64,000 nt of DNA from Candidatus Saccharimonadota bacterium (GTDB taxonomy: Bacteria > Patescibacteriota > Saccharimonadia > Saccharimonadales > Saccharimonadaceae). The stretch is from positions 1-64,000 of the forward strand of contig JAUMZP010000001.1 of assembly GCA_030528025.1 (NCBI GenBank). Reading direction: 5' to 3'. A program made the position numbers and the translations under genes. Positions 25,066 to 37,175 of this stretch are shown piece after piece. Numbering within the stretch: position 1 is the first letter of the stretch; each line of letters starts with the position of its first letter. A model generated the notes under the pieces. That model searched no databases and was not told where the DNA came from. It worked only from the letters and a program-made list of their open reading frames with translations.

Positions 25066-26853
25066 CTAACCTTTGTGCACCATCCGGCGCAACCACTGGC
25101 CAATCTCACTACGCCACTCCCAGCCAGCATAGCCCACTGCCACGATAGCTACTCCACCAATCATCCACCAGACAATCTCTGTCTGTCCATTATTACTACC
25201 CGGCTCAACAGCGTAGCCTGCGGCTGGTATTTTGCTAGTCTTGCTCGTCGATTTGCGGCAGCGATTGGTCGATGGATTACGCTCCCAGCCTGGCTTGCAG
25301 GGCGTCAGCTGGCGACTATTTGCTGCGCCAAGCTTTTTGCAGCGGCCGGTCGCTGGGTTGCGATAGTACCCTGCTTTACATACAGCAGCTGGTGCCTTGC
25401 CGCCAGCGAGCGCTCGGCAGCGCCCTGTGGCAGGATTGCGATACTGCCCCGCCTTGCACGCAGCCAATTGCTGGCCAGTGGCAGATACTGCGCGGCAACG
25501 GCCCGTTGCGGGGTTACGCTCTTGGCCTGGTTTACAGATAGTTAACTTTTGAGCATGAGAAGTACTACGCGCCACCTTTGCATTGCCGGCTCTTTGGCTT
25601 GATTGTTTCTCACTGCTGTTGATTTTCCGACAACGATTTGTTGCGGGGTTGCGTTCTTGGCCAGTGGGGCAAGGTTTGCCCGATGGCTGATGAGGTGAGG
25701 CTGGTGTATCAGTGATGATATTATCGGCTTGGTCGGGGCTTGGTGTTGTCCATTGCCACGTGCCAGTTTGCGAATTGTATGCCCAAGACTTGCCCTGGTG
25801 CGCAGCCTGCCCTGCACCGCTATATGCATCAATGCGCGGCGAAAAGCTCACTAAGCCATACTGGTCCTCAAACCATAGTGTACCACTGCGCAGTATTGCA
25901 AGCTCCGCACCATTTGCCTGAGCACGAATCGTCAGCACCTGGCCTGGCGCAATAGTCCCCGCAAGAGACGAGGTATTTCGCACAGTACTATTGCTGCCAG
26001 GTGTACCACTACGCAAACGATAGGCAGCAAGGTCGATTGGCTGGTCGCCGGTATTTTTGATCTTGACATATTTTTGGCAATTGTCTGGTGCTGTGTCGCA
26101 GGTGTGTGGATGAGGCAAGACCTCAAGAATTTGCAAAGGTGGCTCGCCTGGCGCTTCGTACGGCGCAGTTACCTCAGCTTCACCAGATCGTGCTCGAAAG
26201 TCCTTGGCAAATATCCCAGTCCGCGCCGCTGCCGTCCAGCGTGCACGCTCCCAGACGAGTGCACCTGCAAGCTCGTCTACAGCTGCACTTGCTTTGTCAA
26301 TGGTCGCACCCGATCGCTCCAGCGTCACATCATACCGCGTGACTTGCTCGCCATCTGGCACACTTGGGCAACCCTGGAGCTGTGCGCCATCTGTTGGGGC
26401 CACTGCTGGATGGTAGTAGCGCACCGACGACTGGGGTGGTGCATATCCTTGTAGATTGACGCGACACGTGTAGTCGGTGTGGTTTGTGCTAGCACTGACA
26501 ACAAGTGTGACATCACTAAGCGGTACAAACTGACGTGCAGTATTGTGCAGCTCAACTGCACTCACCGTGCGCCGGTCTGTTGTGTGGAGCGCCCCGATCA
26601 TCAATGCATCGTGTTCAGTATGAGCAGCAAGGTGCGCTACAGGCTGTGCTGCTGGAAACTTGCTGCTAGCAGTATCATCACGCGCCGCTGCCCGTTCAAA
26701 TAAAAAATCGCCGATGGCGGCGACTGGGGTGGCAAAATAAGCAGTGGAAGAATCAGCACCAAGCGCAGAAGCTCCGGCTATTCCTGGTATCATCATGGTT
26801 ACGGCAAGCCCATATGCAATAATTCGCCGGGCATAATTCCGCATAGTTTGCAT
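25066..26853 (-). CDS. Surface protein with a lamin-tail domain and Cys-bounded RNPATGRC repeats
   Basis: A 595-residue exported protein. A signal peptide (about 1-32, ending near GASA) is followed by a beta-rich region (60-220), a lamin-tail (LTD) domain at about 250-350 (QILEVLPHPHTC, YVKIKNTGDQPIDLAAYRLR, FEDQYGLVSF), a proline-rich link, five copies of a short repeat of the form C-x-x-G-x-x-RNP-A/S-T-x-R-C (about 395-550) and a C-terminal membrane helix with a basic tail (about 560-595). This topology puts the LTD and repeats outside the cell. The ATG at 26853 has GAGGAGG upstream. Ligand unknown; adhesion or host contact is a guess. Confidence 0.85.
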   Translation of the reverse strand: MQTMRNYARRIIAYGLAVTMMIPGIAGASALGADSSTAYFATPVAAIGDFLFERAAARDDTASSKFPAAQPVAHLAAHTEHDALMIGALHTTDRRTVSAVELHNTARQFVPLSDVTLVVSASTNHTDYTCRVNLQGYAPPQSSVRYYHPAVAPTDGAQLQGCPSVPDGEQVTRYDVTLERSGATIDKASAAVDELAGALVWERARWTAAARTGIFAKDFRARSGEAEVTAPYEAPGEPPLQILEVLPHPHTCDTAPDNCQKYVKIKNTGDQPIDLAAYRLRSGTPGSNSTVRNTSSLAGTIAPGQVLTIRAQANGAELAILRSGTLWFEDQYGLVSFSPRIDAYSGAGQAAHQGKSWAYNSQTGTWQWTTPSPDQADNIITDTPASPHQPSGKPCPTGQERNPATNRCRKINSSEKQSSQRAGNAKVARSTSHAQKLTICKPGQERNPATGRCRAVSATGQQLAACKAGQYRNPATGRCRALAGGKAPAAVCKAGYYRNPATGRCKKLGAANSRQLTPCKPGWERNPSTNRCRKSTSKTSKIPAAGYAVEPGSNNGQTEIVWWMIGGVAIVAVGYAGWEWRSEIGQWLRRMVHKG

Positions 26854-27037
26854 TTTGTTTTTCCTCCTCGCCACGATTATGCGCAAAGCAACCATCTCGG
26901 TCAAGCACAAGCACATTATTTTGTTGGTCACGCAAATTAATACGGTGGTCGGATTTTGTTCTCTGCCACACAATAATAGCGAGAAATAGGGATTAAGATT
27001 TTATAATGCGGATCTTCAAGCTTTCAAACAGATACAA

Positions 27038-29801: not shown

Positions 29802-30287
29802 TCACTTTTTCTTATGTGGTTTTGCGCTCTTTGTGCGAGCCACGAGTGTGTCAACAAGTGCATATGCAAACCCTATTGTTACAACCATTGCATGAGACCT
29901 ATCCAGCGCTGCTACAGCCATCTTGCCTGTCTCATCAACTGGCGGTACGAGACTACTCAGCGCACCAAACAGTACATACGTTGCCACAACACCAAATATC
30001 AGTGAGCCACTAATACGCCACCAGCGCTGACTCACCACTGAGCCACAGCACACCAATATTACAGCTGGTAGCACCGCCAGCACAATCGTCACCACTGCAA
30101 GCAAGGCAGATCGGTCAATGCCTATACCAACCCCAGCAGCATACGGCACGACATCTGCCGCCCACAGCTGTGTCATTACCATACCAACCGCCAGACCCAT
30201 TACTGGTAGCCCAAAATGCCGCTTCGCTACATATACCAAACCAGCCGAAACCACAGCCGTACCAACAAGCAATCCAAGCAACATCAT
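29802..30287 (-). CDS. Polytopic membrane protein of unknown function
   Basis: A 161-residue hydrophobic protein with about four to five membrane helices (about 2-22, 28-48, 58-80, 92-112, 130-150) and a basic C-terminus (TKSAKPHKKK). I do not recognise the family. I start at the ATG at 30287 because a TATAAT box ends six bases upstream, giving a leaderless message; a longer frame to 30308 would span the promoter. It lies directly downstream of the rimK-like gene but has its own promoter, so membership of the ligase operon is uncertain. Confidence 0.7.
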   Translation of the reverse strand: MMLLGLLVGTAVVSAGLVYVAKRHFGLPVMGLAVGMVMTQLWAADVVPYAAGVGIGIDRSALLAVVTIVLAVLPAVILVCCGSVVSQRWWRISGSLIFGVVATYVLFGALSSLVPPVDETGKMAVAALDRSHAMVVTIGFAYALVDTLVARTKSAKPHKKK

Positions 30288-30293
30288 GCCACC

Positions 30294-30302
30294 ATTATAC
30301 CA
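30294..30302 (-). promoter_or_regulatory. Leaderless promoter of the membrane protein gene
   Basis: Extended -10 TGG-TATAAT on the minus strand (hexamer 30294-30299), then exactly six bases (GGTGGC) and ATG at 30287. Confidence 0.65.
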
Positions 30303-30353
30303 TGACATCGATTCAACATAAGCGTTATGAGAAGCGCCAGTACGTTTGGATAG

Positions 30354-31271
30354 TTATGCCCCAACGCGATCCTTCTTGTGCTGCCGCTTTGCATTGCGCT
30401 CAATATATTCAATGATTGGTTTGGCTACATTGCGCCGCGTAATTTTCTCTATCCCAAATCCTGGGCTCGCATTGACCTCAAGCACTAGCGGCCCACGACT
30501 CGAGCGCATAAAGTCAACACCCGCTACTGTCAGACCCATCGCCTTAGCTGCCCGCAAACACATACGACGCTCGGTATCCGTCAAGCGGATCGGCGTTCCT
30601 TCACCTCCCTTATGGAGGTTGGAGCGAAAGTCGTCATCTAGGCTCTGGCGCTTCATACTCGCCACTACACGACTCCCTACCACAAAGGCGCGGATGTCCA
30701 CTCCAGCCGACTCACGAATAAATTCCTGCAACAGGATATTTGTCCCATCCTCGTTGGTGAGGTACAATGCCTGAAGCACTGACTTTGCTGCCTTCTTCGT
30801 CTCCGCTAGCACCACACCATTGCCATGAGTACCACGAGCGAGTTTGATGATGACTGGCGTACCACCAAGTTCGTTAAGGAGATCGTCTATATCGGCCGAG
30901 TTGCGGCTAAACACTGTCTTAGGAATAGCTACTCCACCTCGGGCTAGCAGCTGTGTCGAACGCAGTTTATCGCGTGCCCGGGTAATCGCAATCGAGCGAT
31001 TAACAAAAAGCGTGCGTGGATACGCCATTTCTAACTGGCGTGCTACTGCTGTGCCGTAGCGAGTCATGTAGCTTGCAATGCGCGGAATTATTGCATCGTA
31101 CTGATCAATTGCTTCACCATCATACATCACCGTTGGGTTCTTCTCATCAATCGTCACATAACATTTGCGGTATTTAATCACTCTCACACTATGTCCACGC
31201 CTCTCCGCCTCTTCCTTGAGGCGAAGCGTTGAGTAGTTCACATTGCCGTTACTGAGTATTGCGATTTTCAC
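30354..31271 (-). CDS. RimK-like ATP-grasp amino-acid ligase
   Basis: A 305-residue ATP-grasp ligase closest to RimK, which adds glutamates to the C-terminus of ribosomal protein S6. Seen: the pre-ATP-grasp domain (MKIAILSNGN, IPRIASYMTRYG), KLRSTQLLARGGVAIPKT, the glycine-rich ATP loop LARGTHGNGVVLAE, FIRESAGVDIRAFVVG and the intact metal-binding strand LEVNASPG (about 264-271). The start is GTG at 31271 with GAGG six bases upstream. It is the last ligase of a four-gene block with the MATCAP-like peptidase and may be the catalytic amino-acid ligase of that system. The target protein is unknown; S6 is one option. Confidence 0.87.
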   Translation of the reverse strand: MKIAILSNGNVNYSTLRLKEEAERRGHSVRVIKYRKCYVTIDEKNPTVMYDGEAIDQYDAIIPRIASYMTRYGTAVARQLEMAYPRTLFVNRSIAITRARDKLRSTQLLARGGVAIPKTVFSRNSADIDDLLNELGGTPVIIKLARGTHGNGVVLAETKKAAKSVLQALYLTNEDGTNILLQEFIRESAGVDIRAFVVGSRVVASMKRQSLDDDFRSNLHKGGEGTPIRLTDTERRMCLRAAKAMGLTVAGVDFMRSSRGPLVLEVNASPGFGIEKITRRNVAKPIIEYIERNAKRQHKKDRVGA

Positions 31272-31325
31272 TCCATACCTCGTACTATTATTTTATCGAT
31301 TTTGCTTATTATATGCTCTCTGTCT

Positions 31326-32834
31326 CTATTGTAGTCCATTTTGGCGTAGTTCTTGACGATTACTACTTTCGGCCTTCTTATCAATATCACCCTCTGCAAC
31401 ATGAACGATGAATTTATTACGCAAAATATTTCTTCCAATCAGCATTGGGTAGATCTGCCCTGATCTGTCTGCTAGTGTAACTTTTGCTTTCACTCGCCTT
31501 CCTGCCAAACTTACATTAATGACAACCTGATACCGCAGTTCCTCATAACCATTCGAACTCCGAACAGAGCGCATGGAATACTCAGAAAAATGCAACTCCT
31601 CACCAGTATACACTGGGGAGCCTTCACCAAATAGTTTGCAATAGAGGCCTGTCTTATCAACTCGAATATCGCTTGCCCATATAGACGAGACTGTTGCCCC
31701 TGTATCTATCCGAGCTTTAAATTTTTCGTTAACAAGATCAGGCAAAGCAACCTTTTCAACTCGGCCAATCATAACTATCTTTTTGCCGATAGGATGCGCC
31801 GTTTTTTCAATAGCATGAAATAGTTTTCGTGCAACATTCCGAGGTTTGCCTTCTGTTGGAAATTGGTGCATTCGTATCTCTGGAGATGCCATCACTCTTA
31901 CGACATAGCTATCATTTCCATCGCCACTAATGTTATCCGTCACAATATCAATACCAGCAATACCAAGAAAACATGCTGATGCCGCTTGAATTGCTATGTT
32001 TTTGAGTTCATCAGACACATAACTCGTGACATCAACTACTTCACCACCCCTACTCAGATTCAATGTATCTAAAACCTCAACAGCACGACCTTTCTCGGGA
32101 ACTTGTTGCAAAAAGTAAGCACCTTTATGTCTCGACACATCTTCAATGTTTATTTTCGCTACTAAACTAGCGTGTCTATTGCCATGCTTTGGGCAATTGT
32201 TATTTTTTTTACTTATCAAGGTTCGTATTGTTGATACTCCATCTCCAACAATATATGGTGGTCGACGATATGCTACTGCAATGACTTTTTTATTTAACAC
32301 CAAGAAGCGATATTCTTGCCCAAAAACCATTTGCTGAACAATTATATCAGGTTGTCCACCACTATTCTGATATACATGGTGTATTGCACGAAGCAAACTT
32401 TCTTCGTCACTAGCGTTAACAAGAACACTATTACTGTAGTTTACAGTAGCAGATTTGACAACAAGACGCTCATAGGACTCTAACATTTTTCGAAGTGTAT
32501 CATCAATTACCACATCTTCGGGTCTATTTATTTTCAATGGATATGTATCTGGTATTTGTATATGCGCTTGGTGTAATATGTTATTCGTCCAGATCCTGTC
32601 CTCATTCACCTGGACTGCATATGAAGGGTTTAGTGCAGTATTAAGATTATAAAAGTAAAGCTCTTTGCCGTCCTTTTCACAGCGCACCACATGTGATGTT
32701 GCTAAACGACCTGGAACTGTTGTGACCTGGTACCCTTTTCGGAGTGCCTCCTTCATTAGTAATCGAGAAGTCATGCCATACCGTGACAGGTCTGCTTTTT
32801 TGATACTATTCTTGCTTTCTTGCTCCATATTCAT
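31326..32834 (-). CDS. ATP-grasp domain fused to a RimB-like retropepsin-fold peptidase
   Basis: A 502-residue fusion. Residues about 1-345 form an ATP-grasp domain like those of cyanophycin synthetase or GshF (YERLVVKSATVNYSNSVLV, QQMVFGQEYRFLVLN, RRPPYIVGDG). Residues about 355-495 form an aspartic-peptidase-like domain of the RimB / ATP-dependent zinc protease family, with the catalytic DTGA at 377-380 and a C-terminal YPMLIGRNILR strand. The ATP-grasp strand that normally reads E-x-N-x-S-P is V-R-V-M-A-S-P (about 312-318), so both metal-ligand positions look replaced. No Shine-Dalgarno is visible; it starts 14 nt after the preceding gene. The DNA is visibly A+T-rich. Confidence 0.82.
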   Translation of the reverse strand: MNMEQESKNSIKKADLSRYGMTSRLLMKEALRKGYQVTTVPGRLATSHVVRCEKDGKELYFYNLNTALNPSYAVQVNEDRIWTNNILHQAHIQIPDTYPLKINRPEDVVIDDTLRKMLESYERLVVKSATVNYSNSVLVNASDEESLLRAIHHVYQNSGGQPDIIVQQMVFGQEYRFLVLNKKVIAVAYRRPPYIVGDGVSTIRTLISKKNNNCPKHGNRHASLVAKINIEDVSRHKGAYFLQQVPEKGRAVEVLDTLNLSRGGEVVDVTSYVSDELKNIAIQAASACFLGIAGIDIVTDNISGDGNDSYVVRVMASPEIRMHQFPTEGKPRNVARKLFHAIEKTAHPIGKKIVMIGRVEKVALPDLVNEKFKARIDTGATVSSIWASDIRVDKTGLYCKLFGEGSPVYTGEELHFSEYSMRSVRSSNGYEELRYQVVINVSLAGRRVKAKVTLADRSGQIYPMLIGRNILRNKFIVHVAEGDIDKKAESSNRQELRQNGLQ

Positions 32835-32848
32835 AGCGATACATTTAT

Positions 32849-34216
32849 TTACTTCGAACTATTTTCAATTATACCAATAATATTTCTTGATTCTCTCATA
32901 AGCGTACCCTCCTCATTCATAACACGAAAATTAGTAAATATAGACGCTAATCGAGACCCTGGCTCAATAGACCTCTCGCTCCTTGTATAATCCTGTACAA
33001 AAACCTGTTTTGCAGAAGAAGACCTATCGAATGACATTATATCGTCTATGGATTGCATCTTTTCATTATATAATCCCGACCGAGGGCTGTCAGCAACACC
33101 TGTCTCACTGTCTCGTTGATGGAGAACCATCAGCGCGCAATCATTATAGTCATTGCTGTATGAACTGTCTTCAATAGTATAATCAGCATTCGTTAGTTCT
33201 AAGATATGAAGAAGATAGAAGGGGATATGCTTTTTTGCATTATAGCTCATTGCAAGAAGCGGTGTTGCACCCGTAATGCGCGCATTAACTTCGATAGTAT
33301 ACACTGCATCATCCGTCACCAAAGAATCAACACCAAAAATACCACGATACCCTCTGTCGTATAATTCCTGGCCTATGACGCGCGCATTTTTCGTTAGTTG
33401 ACTACTCTGCCATGTGTGTTGATCATCTGCTAATATTTCAATACCACAAAACTTCTCAGCACCAGGAATACTTGTATTTGATAAATTCGGGTCTGCAATA
33501 ATCTGCCGCTGCACTGGCCCTATGAAGACCCCGTAGCGCGTTACAACGCCCTGTACCGACCAATCACGTCCATCAGCAATGTAGTCTGATACAACTACTT
33601 CACCAACCAAACCATTGCTATTCTGCATTGTGTTTATTGCGGAACAAAATGAGTCGAAGCTATCGACAATAAACGACCCCTTCCCTCCACCAAGTGTAGC
33701 ATCCTGCAAAACAATCTTACTGCGTCCATTACAGAGATTAGAAAAATATTCCTCATCCGATAACATTTCTCGCCAAGGGTATATTTTATGTGATGGAATG
33801 TTGCAAAGACGCTCTGCAAAAATACGCCGAAACCACGATTTATTCTCAAACTTCTGAGCCAACACGTACATATCGTTGCTAGGCAAAAATTGCAAACTGC
33901 TTTGTTTTAATCGCTCAGGAATTACGAAAGGTTTATACGTAAAAATACGGTACTCAGGTAAATGAGTTATTATCATGTCTTGGAATATTGGATCTTGCAA
34001 AAGAGCCTGTGTAGTCAGTTCACCTATATAAGGTTTCTCACACTGATCGCGCACATAAGCGAGACTATTCATGTGCTCTACATTCTGGCTGCGCATATTC
34101 CAGCCAGCTAGTGAAGCAATTTTGTAATTATCAAACCACTGCTCAGGTCCAATTCTTGCCCATGGTTGTATACTAACGCCTGCTATCTTTAAACTTTTAT
34201 CGTATTGAATTTTCAT
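32849..34216 (-). CDS. ATP-grasp carboxylate-amine ligase
   Basis: A 455-residue protein with an ATP-grasp core at about 165-340: glycine-rich loop ATLGGGKGS (173-181), VVVSDYIADGRDWSVQG, and IEVNARITGATPLL (about 308-321), where the metal-binding Glu and Asn are intact. The N-terminal 160 and C-terminal 100 residues match no family I know. Such enzymes join a carboxylate to an amine through an acyl-phosphate. It lies 14 nt downstream of the MATCAP-like peptidase gene and 14 nt upstream of the fusion gene, which implies one transcript. The composition is A+T-rich like its neighbours. Confidence 0.8.
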   Translation of the reverse strand: MKIQYDKSLKIAGVSIQPWARIGPEQWFDNYKIASLAGWNMRSQNVEHMNSLAYVRDQCEKPYIGELTTQALLQDPIFQDMIITHLPEYRIFTYKPFVIPERLKQSSLQFLPSNDMYVLAQKFENKSWFRRIFAERLCNIPSHKIYPWREMLSDEEYFSNLCNGRSKIVLQDATLGGGKGSFIVDSFDSFCSAINTMQNSNGLVGEVVVSDYIADGRDWSVQGVVTRYGVFIGPVQRQIIADPNLSNTSIPGAEKFCGIEILADDQHTWQSSQLTKNARVIGQELYDRGYRGIFGVDSLVTDDAVYTIEVNARITGATPLLAMSYNAKKHIPFYLLHILELTNADYTIEDSSYSNDYNDCALMVLHQRDSETGVADSPRSGLYNEKMQSIDDIMSFDRSSSAKQVFVQDYTRSERSIEPGSRLASIFTNFRVMNEEGTLMRESRNIIGIIENSSK

Positions 34217-34230
34217 TGCTTGTATTTAGT

Positions 34231-35811
34231 CTAAGTACTATGTGATTCGAGTATGACTCTCTGGTGCTTCTTCGAAGTATTAATTTTACCAGCTAGTAAT
34301 AAACTCAGCTGCAAATCATCACCACAAATTTTCTCTAGATATCCCCATACTTCTTTTGAGCCATTGTAATAGCAGAGATCCTTAAAGAGGGGCAGATCAT
34401 CAGTACCCCGATAAATACGCATTGTTGTGTTTGCTGCCCATTGCTTAGCTTTGTCAATCTGGACTTGTGTTGGTGCTTGATCAGGCTTGAGGCTCTCGAG
34501 AAGTTTGAGACGCCACTTCACATCGTAAGCACCTTTGAAGTCCTTGTTGTCAAAATAGGCAAGTCCAGCAGTAATATAGTGATCTATGCCAGCTTCTTGA
34601 TATTCTCCTTCAAGGGCGTGCTCCATTGCTTTCCTAAGCCCTTCTTGCGTATCATTAAAACCAGCTAAACCTTGTGTTAGCGGCCCAAGGTTTGTCGAAC
34701 CACCAGTCATTCGCGTTAAGACATGCACACCTATTTCATGTACAACTAGCCGTTTTACTTCATTAACAGACATAGCTTCTCGGTCTTGGGGTATTCTGAT
34801 ATGTCTTGTGTCTGGATCAATATTAATTGATTTTGCCTCTGTCACCTCAACCTTCCAATCCATATCTTTCTCGACATCTCTCGTCTCGGTATTGTCCCAG
34901 TCTGTTACAGCTTGTGCATCCTGAATATCGCCTGTCTGTCTACCTTCTTCAACCTCTTTGGATGACGCAAGGAACTCCTCAGTCAAGATATTCCGAAAGA
35001 TATCTTGAAGGTGTGTCGGCTGGATTTTTATAACCGTCTCATCGTGTGATTCTATTTGAAATTCTGATTTATGCGCTTCTACATAGCTATCAACATATCG
35101 AAGCATATTGTCATACAATCCATGAACAACTTCGTTCATCCATCTCATGGTCTCAGTAGATGGACGAAATCGATCTTGTACACGTGTACCATCTAGTGCA
35201 TTTTCTGGAAGAAGATTCCGAAGCTCCTGAAAGATTATCTTGGCACTTTGACTACGCTTTTTATGAAAGATGTTGGCAATTTTTTCGCCGAGTAATGACT
35301 CATATATTGTTTTAACTGGCTCACCATAGAGCGTAATATTTATCTCCATAAAACGCTGTGCTGCTACTTCTCTTGCTATGGGGTCTGTTGTTGCTGCTTT
35401 ATAATCCCTCATCGCTACTATCAAGTTCGCCTCTTGCTTGCGAGCCTCAATCGCCTGGAGATAGACTGTCCTCTCTGGCTCTGACATAGACTCAGCCATA
35501 TATATCAGCGTTTCCGCAGTATCTTGCATGGTTGTATAATCTTCGCCGGAATACTCCGCAATGGCCGGATACTTTTGCTGAAAAGACGTGGTACTACCTA
35601 TAATCAGACTATTAATTGCTGCTTCTTTGCTTTCTTGATCGGGAACAAGTGATTCAATGACTTTCGGTGATCGCTCAACAAGCTCCTGGTACTTTCCTCG
35701 GAACGCTTCAGGATCTATATCGACAGAGCTATTCTGGCTACGCCGAGCTTCTTTCACCTGTATATCATGATATGGAAGTGGTCTATCCTCGGGAGTATAG
35801 CTCGTTATCAT
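34231..35811 (-). CDS. DUF1704/MATCAP-family metallopeptidase (QEGLA-motif protein)
   Basis: A 526-residue soluble protein. The zinc motif HEIGVH (358-363, HExxxH) is followed by the family's QEGL (389-392), which would give the third ligand. The QEGLA family was first known only as a domain of unknown function; its eukaryotic members (MATCAP) remove the C-terminal tyrosine from tubulin, so a carboxypeptidase that trims protein tails is the natural expectation. The N-terminal 340 residues are mostly helical and charged. It heads a tightly spaced block with three ATP-grasp ligases, suggesting that it removes, or prepares the acceptor for, residues those ligases add. Confidence 0.83.
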   Translation of the reverse strand: MITSYTPEDRPLPYHDIQVKEARRSQNSSVDIDPEAFRGKYQELVERSPKVIESLVPDQESKEAAINSLIIGSTTSFQQKYPAIAEYSGEDYTTMQDTAETLIYMAESMSEPERTVYLQAIEARKQEANLIVAMRDYKAATTDPIAREVAAQRFMEINITLYGEPVKTIYESLLGEKIANIFHKKRSQSAKIIFQELRNLLPENALDGTRVQDRFRPSTETMRWMNEVVHGLYDNMLRYVDSYVEAHKSEFQIESHDETVIKIQPTHLQDIFRNILTEEFLASSKEVEEGRQTGDIQDAQAVTDWDNTETRDVEKDMDWKVEVTEAKSINIDPDTRHIRIPQDREAMSVNEVKRLVVHEIGVHVLTRMTGGSTNLGPLTQGLAGFNDTQEGLRKAMEHALEGEYQEAGIDHYITAGLAYFDNKDFKGAYDVKWRLKLLESLKPDQAPTQVQIDKAKQWAANTTMRIYRGTDDLPLFKDLCYYNGSKEVWGYLEKICGDDLQLSLLLAGKINTSKKHQRVILESHST

Positions 35812-36006: not shown

Positions 36007-37128
36007 TTACAACCCAAATATCCCCTTCCGCCCTAACGTGTCATTAAACTCGCGAAGGATTTCCTTCTGGCGGCGATTTAGTTTGGTTGGGGTGTCAACC
36101 ACTACTGTCACGATATGGGGCCCACGCTTGTCGCTTCGCATGTGTGGCACGCCATGGCCAGATAACTTGAAGTCTGTGCCCGATTGCGTACCAGCTGGCA
36201 CCTTCATTGTAATCGTCCCATCGACTGTCTTAACGTCGAGCTCGGCACCAAGCGCTGCATCTGCCATACCAATATGCTCCTCACTCAGGATTACATCACC
36301 TTCGCGGCTAAACGTCTTGTGTGGATTGACTCGCACCTGCACATAGAGGTCGCCCTTGCTGCCACCACCTACAGCTTCGCCACGACCACGGAGACGAATC
36401 GTCGAGCCATTATCAATACCGGCGGGGATCTTGACGGTAATCGTCTGCTCGCGGCGCTGCACACCGCTACCCTGGCAGACTGTACAGGCCTTCTCAGGAA
36501 TCTGCCCACGGCCTTGGCATGTCTCACACGTTACCGCCTGCTGAATGGGGCCAAACATTGTGTTCATCGTCCGCACGCGCTGGCCAGTGCCTTTACAATC
36601 TGGACAACTCTTAAGGCTTGAGCCAGGTTCGACGGTGCTACCGTGGCAATGCTCGCATTCGTCGTCAAGCGTTAGTGCAAGAGCGACTTCTTTGCCAAAG
36701 ATCGCTTCTTCAAATTCGAGCGTCACACTCGTCTCAACATCACGACCGCGTGATGGACCTTGGCTTGCACTGCCGCCAGCAGCGCCACCAAAGAACTGAC
36801 CAAAGATATCTCCTAGGCCACCATCACCAAAATCAAAGTGGATATTCTGCCCTTGGCCAAAGTCGCCAAAGCCAGCGAATGGGTTACCGCCGCCACTACC
36901 GCTGGCAGCGCCACCAACGCCCGCATGGCCAAATTGGTCATACCGCTGGCGCTTTTGCTTGTCCTTGAGGATTTCATACGCTTCATTAATTTCTTTGAAT
37001 TTCTCTTCACTCCCACCCGCTTTATCTGGGTGGTACTTCACTGCCAATTTGCGGAATGCCCGCTTGATGTCATCATCGCTGGCGCTTTTGGCAACACCAA
37101 GCACCTCATAATAATCTCGCTTCGCCAT
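36007..37128 (-). CDS. dnaJ: Chaperone DnaJ
   Basis: Hsp40 co-chaperone of DnaK, 373 residues. J domain with KYHPDKAGG (HPD near residue 32), a Gly/Phe-rich region (about 70-125), four zinc motifs ([32 protein letters not shown]; the first lacks its final Gly), then the two substrate-binding barrels. The start [11 protein letters not shown] at 37128 is canonical; a longer frame to 37155 covers the promoter. A -10 box lies nine bases upstream and a perfect CIRCE operator directly behind it. dnaK and grpE are not next to it. Confidence 0.97.
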
Positions 37129-37137
37129 ATCTGTCTT

Positions 37138-37143
37138 AGTATA
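37138..37143 (-). promoter_or_regulatory. -10 box of dnaJ
   Basis: TATACT on the minus strand, nine bases before ATG, with the CIRCE element starting six bases upstream in the -35/-10 spacer region. Confidence 0.6.
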
Positions 37144-37148
37144 GCCAA

Positions 37149-37175
37149 TTAGCACTCTAATTGCAAGAGTGCTAA
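37149..37175. promoter_or_regulatory. CIRCE operator (HrcA-binding inverted repeat)
   Basis: TTAGCACTC (37149-37157), 9-nt spacer, GAGTGCTAA (37167-37175): a full match to the CIRCE consensus bound by the heat-shock repressor HrcA. Its position over the dnaJ promoter implies repression of dnaJ in the absence of stress. hrcA itself is not in the window. Confidence 0.95.

Follow-up and report, generated by a model that had tools for sequence, protein, structure and literature searches.

The window described here is a 64,000-nucleotide stretch (contig JAUMZP010000001.1, positions 1 to 64,000) from a Candidatus Saccharimonadota bacterium whose 1.03-Mb genome is 98.6% complete, and the locus in question is a block of four genes for peptidases and ligases placed between dnaJ and yebC (Table 1). 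The block consists of a HExxxH metallopeptidase of the MATCAP family, an ATP-grasp ligase (AG1), a second ATP-grasp domain (AG2) fused to a RimB-like retropepsin, and the ligase RimK. Gaps of 14 nucleotides separate MATCAP from AG1 (34217-34230) and AG1 from the fusion (32835-32848), 54 nucleotides precede RimK, and the end of dnaJ lies 195 nucleotides from the MATCAP gene. The preliminary description of this DNA gave the coordinates and minus strand of the four open reading frames and the two 14-nucleotide gaps correctly. The motifs HEIGVH, QEGL, IEVN in AG1, RIDTGA, and LEVN in RimK are all there, and the assignments of that description to MATCAP, ATP-grasp, ATP-grasp::RimB and RimK are backed by Pfam and NCBIfam profile matches.

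Table 1. Features of the dnaJ-rimK region of the window
Feature	Coordinates	Strand	Length (amino acids)	Remarks
dnaJ	36007..37155	-		Pfam DnaJ/DnaJ_C; constant upstream boundary of the variable slot
MATCAP-family HExxxH metallopeptidase	34231..35811	-	526	PF08014, DUF1704/QEGLA
AG1	32849..34216	-	455	PRK06524-like ATP-grasp amino-acid/peptide ligase; TIEVN intact
AG2::RimB fusion	31326..32834	-	502	ATP-grasp ~10-342; RimB-like retropepsin ~355-486
RimK	30354..31271	-	305	GTG start; LEVN intact
orf168	29802..30308	-	168	conserved hydrophobic protein 3' of RimK

The metallopeptidase exceeds the curated cut-off of PF08014 (E 3.3e-19; 69.5 bits, cut-off 27) and is related to the TIGR02421 QEGLA equivalog below equivalog level (56.7 against a cut-off of 338.65). 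Thirteen of its residues are invariant in 21 relatives of 16-39% identity, including Y412, R468-G469-T470, the catalytic H358-E359-H363 of the HExxxH motif, and E390-G391, the EG motif that contributes the third metal ligand (Glu). The best match of the family profile, made from MATCAP relatives, in the Protein Data Bank (PDB) is human MATCAP (7z5g, E 6e-9; next unrelated entry E 0.08), whose HEIGTH and EEG align with the HExxxH and xEG motifs of the window protein. An AlphaFold2 (AF2) model built from five sequences is weak (predicted local distance difference test 63, predicted template modelling score 0.58), and Foldseek returned zero matches with it. VIA-align superposed this model on human apo MATCAP 7z5g with Z 7.1 (root-mean-square deviation 5.4, 216 residues), a Z that DUF885 proteins and others equalled; the structural comparison is supportive only jointly with the sequence match, which does most of the work. 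The resemblance to DUF885 proteins, the divergence within the family and the position beside dnaJ would also suit a general zincin peptidase that edits no tails (acting, for example, with DnaJ in protein quality control). This explanation is highly improbable given the clear preference of the family profile for human MATCAP, the invariant EG and RGT motifs, and the fusion of relatives to glutamate ligases.

The three ATP-grasp domains are of different kinds. AG1 matches ATP-grasp_3 (E 1.4e-10) and NF005096 (PRK06524; E 7.5e-24), and its metal-binding strand is intact. AG2 matches the cyanophycin-synthetase-like NCBIfam model TIGR02068 (E 1.8e-55), a RimK-like ATP-grasp family (E 6e-7) and, in the PDB, cyanophycin synthase 7lgn (E 2.5e-28). 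It reads VVRVMASPE, with R313 and M315 at the Mg-ligand positions held by E and N in cyanophycin synthetases; the E and N ligands are kept in 13/13 relatives, and the window copy is the sole exception among 14 aligned AG2 domains. The nearest fusion, at L054 (L-numbers label homologous loci from other genomes), is 40% identical and keeps IEVN. Because the window copy alone lacks both metal ligands, the AG2 half is probably ligase-dead, which would leave two active ligases, AG1 and RimK. The earlier count of three ATP-grasp ligases therefore holds for domains but probably not for enzymes.

RimK itself matches PF08443 (E 5e-55) and Rimk_N (E 6e-31), passes TIGR00768 (249.7 against a cut-off of 143.4) with the catalytic strand LEVNASPG, and lies marginally under the cut-off of the NCBI S6-ligase equivalog NF007764 (320.3 against 331). 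Its best PDB match is the alpha-L-glutamate ligase 7qyr (E 2e-85). The retropepsin domain is RimB-like, matching PF05618 (E 1.6e-15; 57.7 against a cut-off of 27) and falling below the NF052261 equivalog (45.7, cut-off 200), and its PDB match is the zinc-protease-domain chain 9g59. RIDTGA is intact in the window copy, and a DTGA-type motif is present in 62/62 RimB domains. Judged from sequence, the catalytic residues of MATCAP, AG1, RimB and RimK are all intact.

Base composition divides the block. Guanine-plus-cytosine (GC) content is 42.6% in MATCAP, 40.4% in AG1 and 40.2% in AG2::RimB; RimK, at 51.2%, is similar to the flanks. The same division appears when third codon positions (GC3) are included, with GC of 40-43% and GC3 of 31-37% in the first three genes against GC of 51-54% and GC3 of ~52% in RimK, DnaJ and YebC. 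Because GC and GC3 are below those of RimK and the flanks, MATCAP, AG1 and AG2::RimB are read as a foreign cassette; the simplest reading is that this low-GC, three-gene unit was imported beside a resident rimK and replaced the native rimB. The four genes had been presented as one set, which their linkage in relatives upholds, but RimK appears to be the resident member and the other three a compositionally foreign addition.

In a sample of 120 relatives, RimB (PF05618) is found in 92 and RimK in 100, usually adjacent to each other and placed between dnaJ and orf168/yebC; dnaJ lies upstream of RimB or MATCAP across the order, and a homologue of orf168 follows RimK in most relatives looked at. 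The ancestral block is dnaJ-rimB-rimK-orf168-yebC, with RimK as a resident gene of the order. Pfam detects MATCAP in 32/120 relatives, an undercount, as profile searches of the loci added MATCAP in L066, L068, L080 and L081. When the loci of 31 MATCAP-bearing relatives were counted by hand, MATCAP lay in the dnaJ-rimK interval or near RimB/RimK in 24, which belong to several families. Loci L044, L034, L136, L135 and L054 show the same succession of MATCAP, ATP-grasp, RimB (or the fusion) and RimK. At L135 it takes the form MATCAP-AG1-RimB-RimK, the gene in the second place being 46% identical to the window AG1, and at L054 the form MATCAP, ATP-grasp, ATP-grasp::RimB, RimK. A search with four close sequences led to four Saccharibacteria loci, Candidatus Nanosynbacter among them. 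Co-conservation of the gene set had been chosen beforehand as a test, and both the position of MATCAP and the gene order at L135 and L054 bear it out.

The slot between dnaJ and rimB is variable. In other relatives it holds RimK-like/ATP-grasp_4 ligases, Mur ligase, S51 peptidases, GNAT, a GT4 glycosyltransferase and a membrane protein of ~1050 residues, with ligases and peptidases predominating. S51 (cyanophycinase-fold) peptidase and Mur ligase occupy the slot at L055:8984-9778, L095:6575-7843 and L086:2726-4009; the Mur ligase is akin to the second half of cyanophycin synthetase, and the L086 gene was assigned via its similarity to that of L095. A DUF2157-like membrane protein of ~780-1100 residues lies between dnaJ and rimB at L032:3142-6267 and seven other loci, with or without MATCAP. 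L144, L145 and L146 lack RimB; between dnaJ and orf168 the usual RimK gives way there to a divergent one (39-44% identity) that is paired with a ligase of the AG1 family. At L050 (G023), three MATCAP paralogues lie within one 18-kb stretch, away from RimB/RimK.

A slot that accepts so many enzyme types, the low GC of MATCAP, AG1 and AG2::RimB, and the restriction of MATCAP to the minority of relatives counted above would be expected if only RimB-RimK were functional, with MATCAP and AG1 as passengers, unrelated to it, that an integration hotspot behind dnaJ had picked up. Most of the inserts, however, are amide ligases or peptidases; in distant classes ligase, retropepsin and MATCAP domains form one chain or share one operon, and MATCAP co-occurs with RloB, as described below. 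The passenger explanation is thus improbable, if somewhat less so than a general zincin.

The evidence from other classes comes from a sample of 287 Patescibacteria genomes, 62 of which have MATCAP above the cut-off; fusions were counted in the 30 best MATCAP loci of this sample. Of these 30 loci, 24 encode MATCAP at the C-terminal end of a single protein of ~670-840 (typically ~790) residues, in which a glutamate-ligase-like (RloC-like) ATP-grasp domain is followed by a degenerate retropepsin and then by MATCAP. The N-terminal part is the TIGR02291 alpha-L-glutamate-ligase-like ATP-grasp (E 1e-68 to 5e-89 in three proteins run against NCBIfam; PF14397 matches in three proteins run against Pfam), and its metal strand E[IVL]NAR is intact in all 24 fusion proteins. 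The central stretch of ~150 residues is a retropepsin reduced in size, which hhalign matches to the 62 RimB domains at 97.2% (E 4e-11). From this middle domain the catalytic DTGA motif is gone (L190-L192, L194, L195, L197-L212, L215, L216 and L218), and it looks as if MATCAP had assumed the erasing role in the fused type.

The chain is divided at L213/L227 and L196/L228, where a RimB part that keeps RIDTGA is followed by MATCAP. These split operons run RloB, ligase::RimB, MATCAP, and also hold AG1-like and, for the most part, AG2-like ligases. Genes of the AG1 family adjoin MATCAP in L219, L227 and L228, which belong to other classes; L227 and L228 have both AG1-family and AG2-like ligase genes, L229 has an AG1-family gene, and L196/L228 carries an N-formylglutamate amidohydrolase as well. 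Because AG1, AG2, RimB and MATCAP kinds are fused or share operons in other classes, the families imported at the window locus are, on comparative sequence grounds, part of a wider ligase/peptidase set of the phylum.

Downstream of the fused protein the flank is ordinary (queuosine synthesis, SpoIIE, DUF3048). Immediately 5' of it lies a gene for a PKD and 7TM_transglut protein (PF14402) related to Pseudomonas RloB, an inactive transglutaminase/7TM protein. Outside Saccharimonadales, RloB is present in 51/54 MATCAP-positive and 35/~211 MATCAP-negative genomes of the 287-genome sample (Fisher p 1.5e-27, inflated by shared ancestry; the denominator takes the number of Saccharimonadales genomes as an estimated 22). 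The C-terminus of RloB differs along the same line. Among the RloB loci L230-L300, with fused and unfused labels set by open reading frame length, it is Glu in 21/21 fused-type genomes (19 of them Glu-Glu), in 5/17 unfused MATCAP-positive genomes (4 Glu-Glu by script count) and in 3/32 MATCAP-negative genomes; the contrast in Glu-Glu ends (-EE) between 19/21 fused-type and 0/32 MATCAP-negative genomes has p 2e-12, likewise inflated by common descent. With an outside N-terminus and seven helices, the RloB tail would be cytosolic. A hidden Shine-Dalgarno sequence was considered as the source of the -EE ending and is unlikely to be its sole cause, as the last two codons are GAA 29 times and GAG 5 times and the next possible start lies at varying distances.

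Taken as a whole, the locus is read here as a RimK-type system for reversible C-terminal glutamylation with two erasers, RimB and MATCAP, a reading held with slightly better than even confidence. Animal TMCP/MATCAP enzymes shorten C-terminal Glu chains and remove Tyr (PMC10499314). Polyglutamylated S6 loses Glu to RimB, which requires ~5-6 consecutive Glu and stimulates RimK (PMC11957791), and RloA cut reporters with eight Glu and did not cut those with six (PMC12239564). Following this literature on RimB, RloA and TMCP/MATCAP, resident RimK would add alpha-linked glutamates to a protein ending in Glu-Glu, S6 (-QTEE) being the candidate to consider first; long polyglutamate chains would be cut internally by the RimB part of the imported fusion; and MATCAP, as a zinc carboxypeptidase, would take C-terminal residues one by one and so cover short chains beyond the reach of RimB. 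AG1 may act as a second intact ligase, probably adding a residue or priming the tail, and the AG2 half probably serves for binding or docking without catalysis. The added residue, left unspecified in the preliminary description, is by analogy most likely glutamate, because the ligase partners are of the RimK/RloC family, polyglutamate is what RimB cuts (PMC11957791) and deglutamylation is among the activities of animal MATCAP/TMCP enzymes (PMC10499314).

The same enzymes might instead synthesize and degrade a peptide or polymer that is free rather than protein-bound, the candidates being poly-glutamate, a polymer resembling cyanophycin and a small peptide metabolite, with no protein modified. 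This alternative, rather unlikely yet the strongest of the competing explanations, is kept alive because ligases and peptidases dominate the slot contents. AG2 shows kinship with the ATP-grasp half of cyanophycin synthetase, relatives hold in the same slot a Mur ligase akin to the other half of that enzyme and an S51 peptidase, RimK with RimB yields free poly-glutamate in vitro (PMC11957791), and one split operon includes an N-formylglutamate amidohydrolase and further ligases. Yet at the window locus AG2 has lost its metal ligands and there is no Mur ligase, and in other classes the ligase is fused to MATCAP, whose family trims tails in animals, beside a linked membrane protein with a matching -EE tail.

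Several observations weigh against reversible glutamylation at this locus. Within its family the window MATCAP is divergent, its QEGLA equivalog score lying far under the cut-off. MATCAP is patchy, and in 7 of the relatives that carry it the gene lies at another place or on a short contig. Since the slot also takes GNAT, glycosyltransferase, Mur ligase and S51 peptidase, the neighbourhood by itself could reflect a hotspot. The related sequences behind the RloB/MATCAP and -EE statistics are not independent. RloB (PF14402) has no match in the window's genome, and in the sampled Saccharimonadales it is absent too, with one weak sub-threshold match. Finally, S6 tails do not track RimK in relatives. 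S6 of the window genome ends in -SRQTEE; the protein ends in E in 34/45 RimK-positive and 7/12 RimK-negative relatives, a difference that is not significant. The S6 tail was accordingly dropped as a RimK discriminator, and S6 stays a candidate only, plausible but unproven as the target of the system. Among proteins neighbouring the locus, no enrichment of -EE tails was found.

The preliminary concept of a reversible C-terminal tail modification by writers and erasers is thus partly supported. It is right in outline, the ligase/peptidase unit being co-conserved in Saccharimonadales and fused in other classes, with S6 as a candidate target only; the corrections are a probably dead AG2, a resident RimK and Glu as the likely residue. 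Such a locus would give Patescibacteria, with their reduced genomes, a C-terminal glutamylation system with two erasers, a variant of the Rim/Rlo systems. The fusion of MATCAP to RimK/RloC-like ligases and a retropepsin, beside an RloB ending in -EE, gives a testable substrate, residue and direction of reaction. The findings suggest a bacterial counterpart of reversible tubulin tail editing and would point to a bacterial root for the enzymes of the tubulin tail code. A broader scenario is put forward tentatively, at clearly less than even probability: the MATCAP family arose as, or was ancestrally partnered with, bacterial RimK/RloC-type glutamate ligases, RloB is the substrate in Patescibacteria, and the window locus is a ribosome- or protein-directed offshoot. 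In that event the animal code, whose writers are the ATP-grasp enzymes TTL/TTLL and whose erasers are MATCAP enzymes, would reuse a pair already joined in bacteria.

Three further features of the window may be recorded. No Pfam or NCBIfam family matched orf168. In a promoter and terminator scan of the locus, promoter-like sites were no commoner than in shuffled sequences, and no operon claim is made from the scan for this reason. At 25066-26973 (minus strand), a secreted-looking protein has in its C-terminal part several imperfect Cys units of ~25 residues, C-x-x-G-x-x-R-N-P-[AS]-T-x-R-C-[RK], followed by a C-terminal membrane segment.

The literature searched, in which Iyer et al. 2009 was not covered, assigns no partner or substrate to bacterial MATCAP members, and it held nothing relevant on DUF1704/QEGLA, on RimK in Saccharibacteria or on polyglutamylation in Patescibacteria. 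The animal tubulin carboxypeptidases MATCAP/TMCP (KIAA0895L/KIAA0895), which act on C-terminal acidic tails (PMC10499314), have in common with the window protein the HExxxH and EG metal-ligand motifs and the sequence match to 7z5g. The window protein differs in being bacterial and divergent, in reading QEG instead of EEG, and in being partnered with RimK-type ligases instead of TTL/TTLL. RimABK of P. fluorescens (PMC11957791) likewise places RimK beside a DTGA retropepsin RimB, with a Glu-Glu end on S6, but in the window RimB follows, within one chain, a probably dead cyanophycin-synthetase-like ATP-grasp domain, and the locus adds a MATCAP peptidase and a second ligase. With RloABC of P. aeruginosa (PMC12239564) the locus shares a retropepsin, an ATP-grasp ligase and polyglutamate as the likely chemistry, and in related Patescibacteria MATCAP is accompanied by homologues of RloB and RloC. 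The window genome, however, is without RloB, the published Rlo operon is without MATCAP, and Pseudomonas RloA is secreted, whereas the window retropepsin follows an N-terminal ATP-grasp domain.

The published RimBK hybrid (D. psychrophila type) has RimB N-terminal to RimK; the order in the window fusion is reversed, and its ligase half is cyanophycin-synthetase-like with the metal ligands lost. AG2 aligns with the central ATP-grasp domain of cyanophycin synthetase (CphA), but AG2::RimB is without the Mur-ligase half, has lost the metal ligands and carries a retropepsin instead. Amidoligase-peptidase systems, in which ATP-grasp ligases beside peptidases modify peptides or proteins, were reportedly predicted by Iyer et al. 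in 2009, and the window locus has this general concept in common with them.

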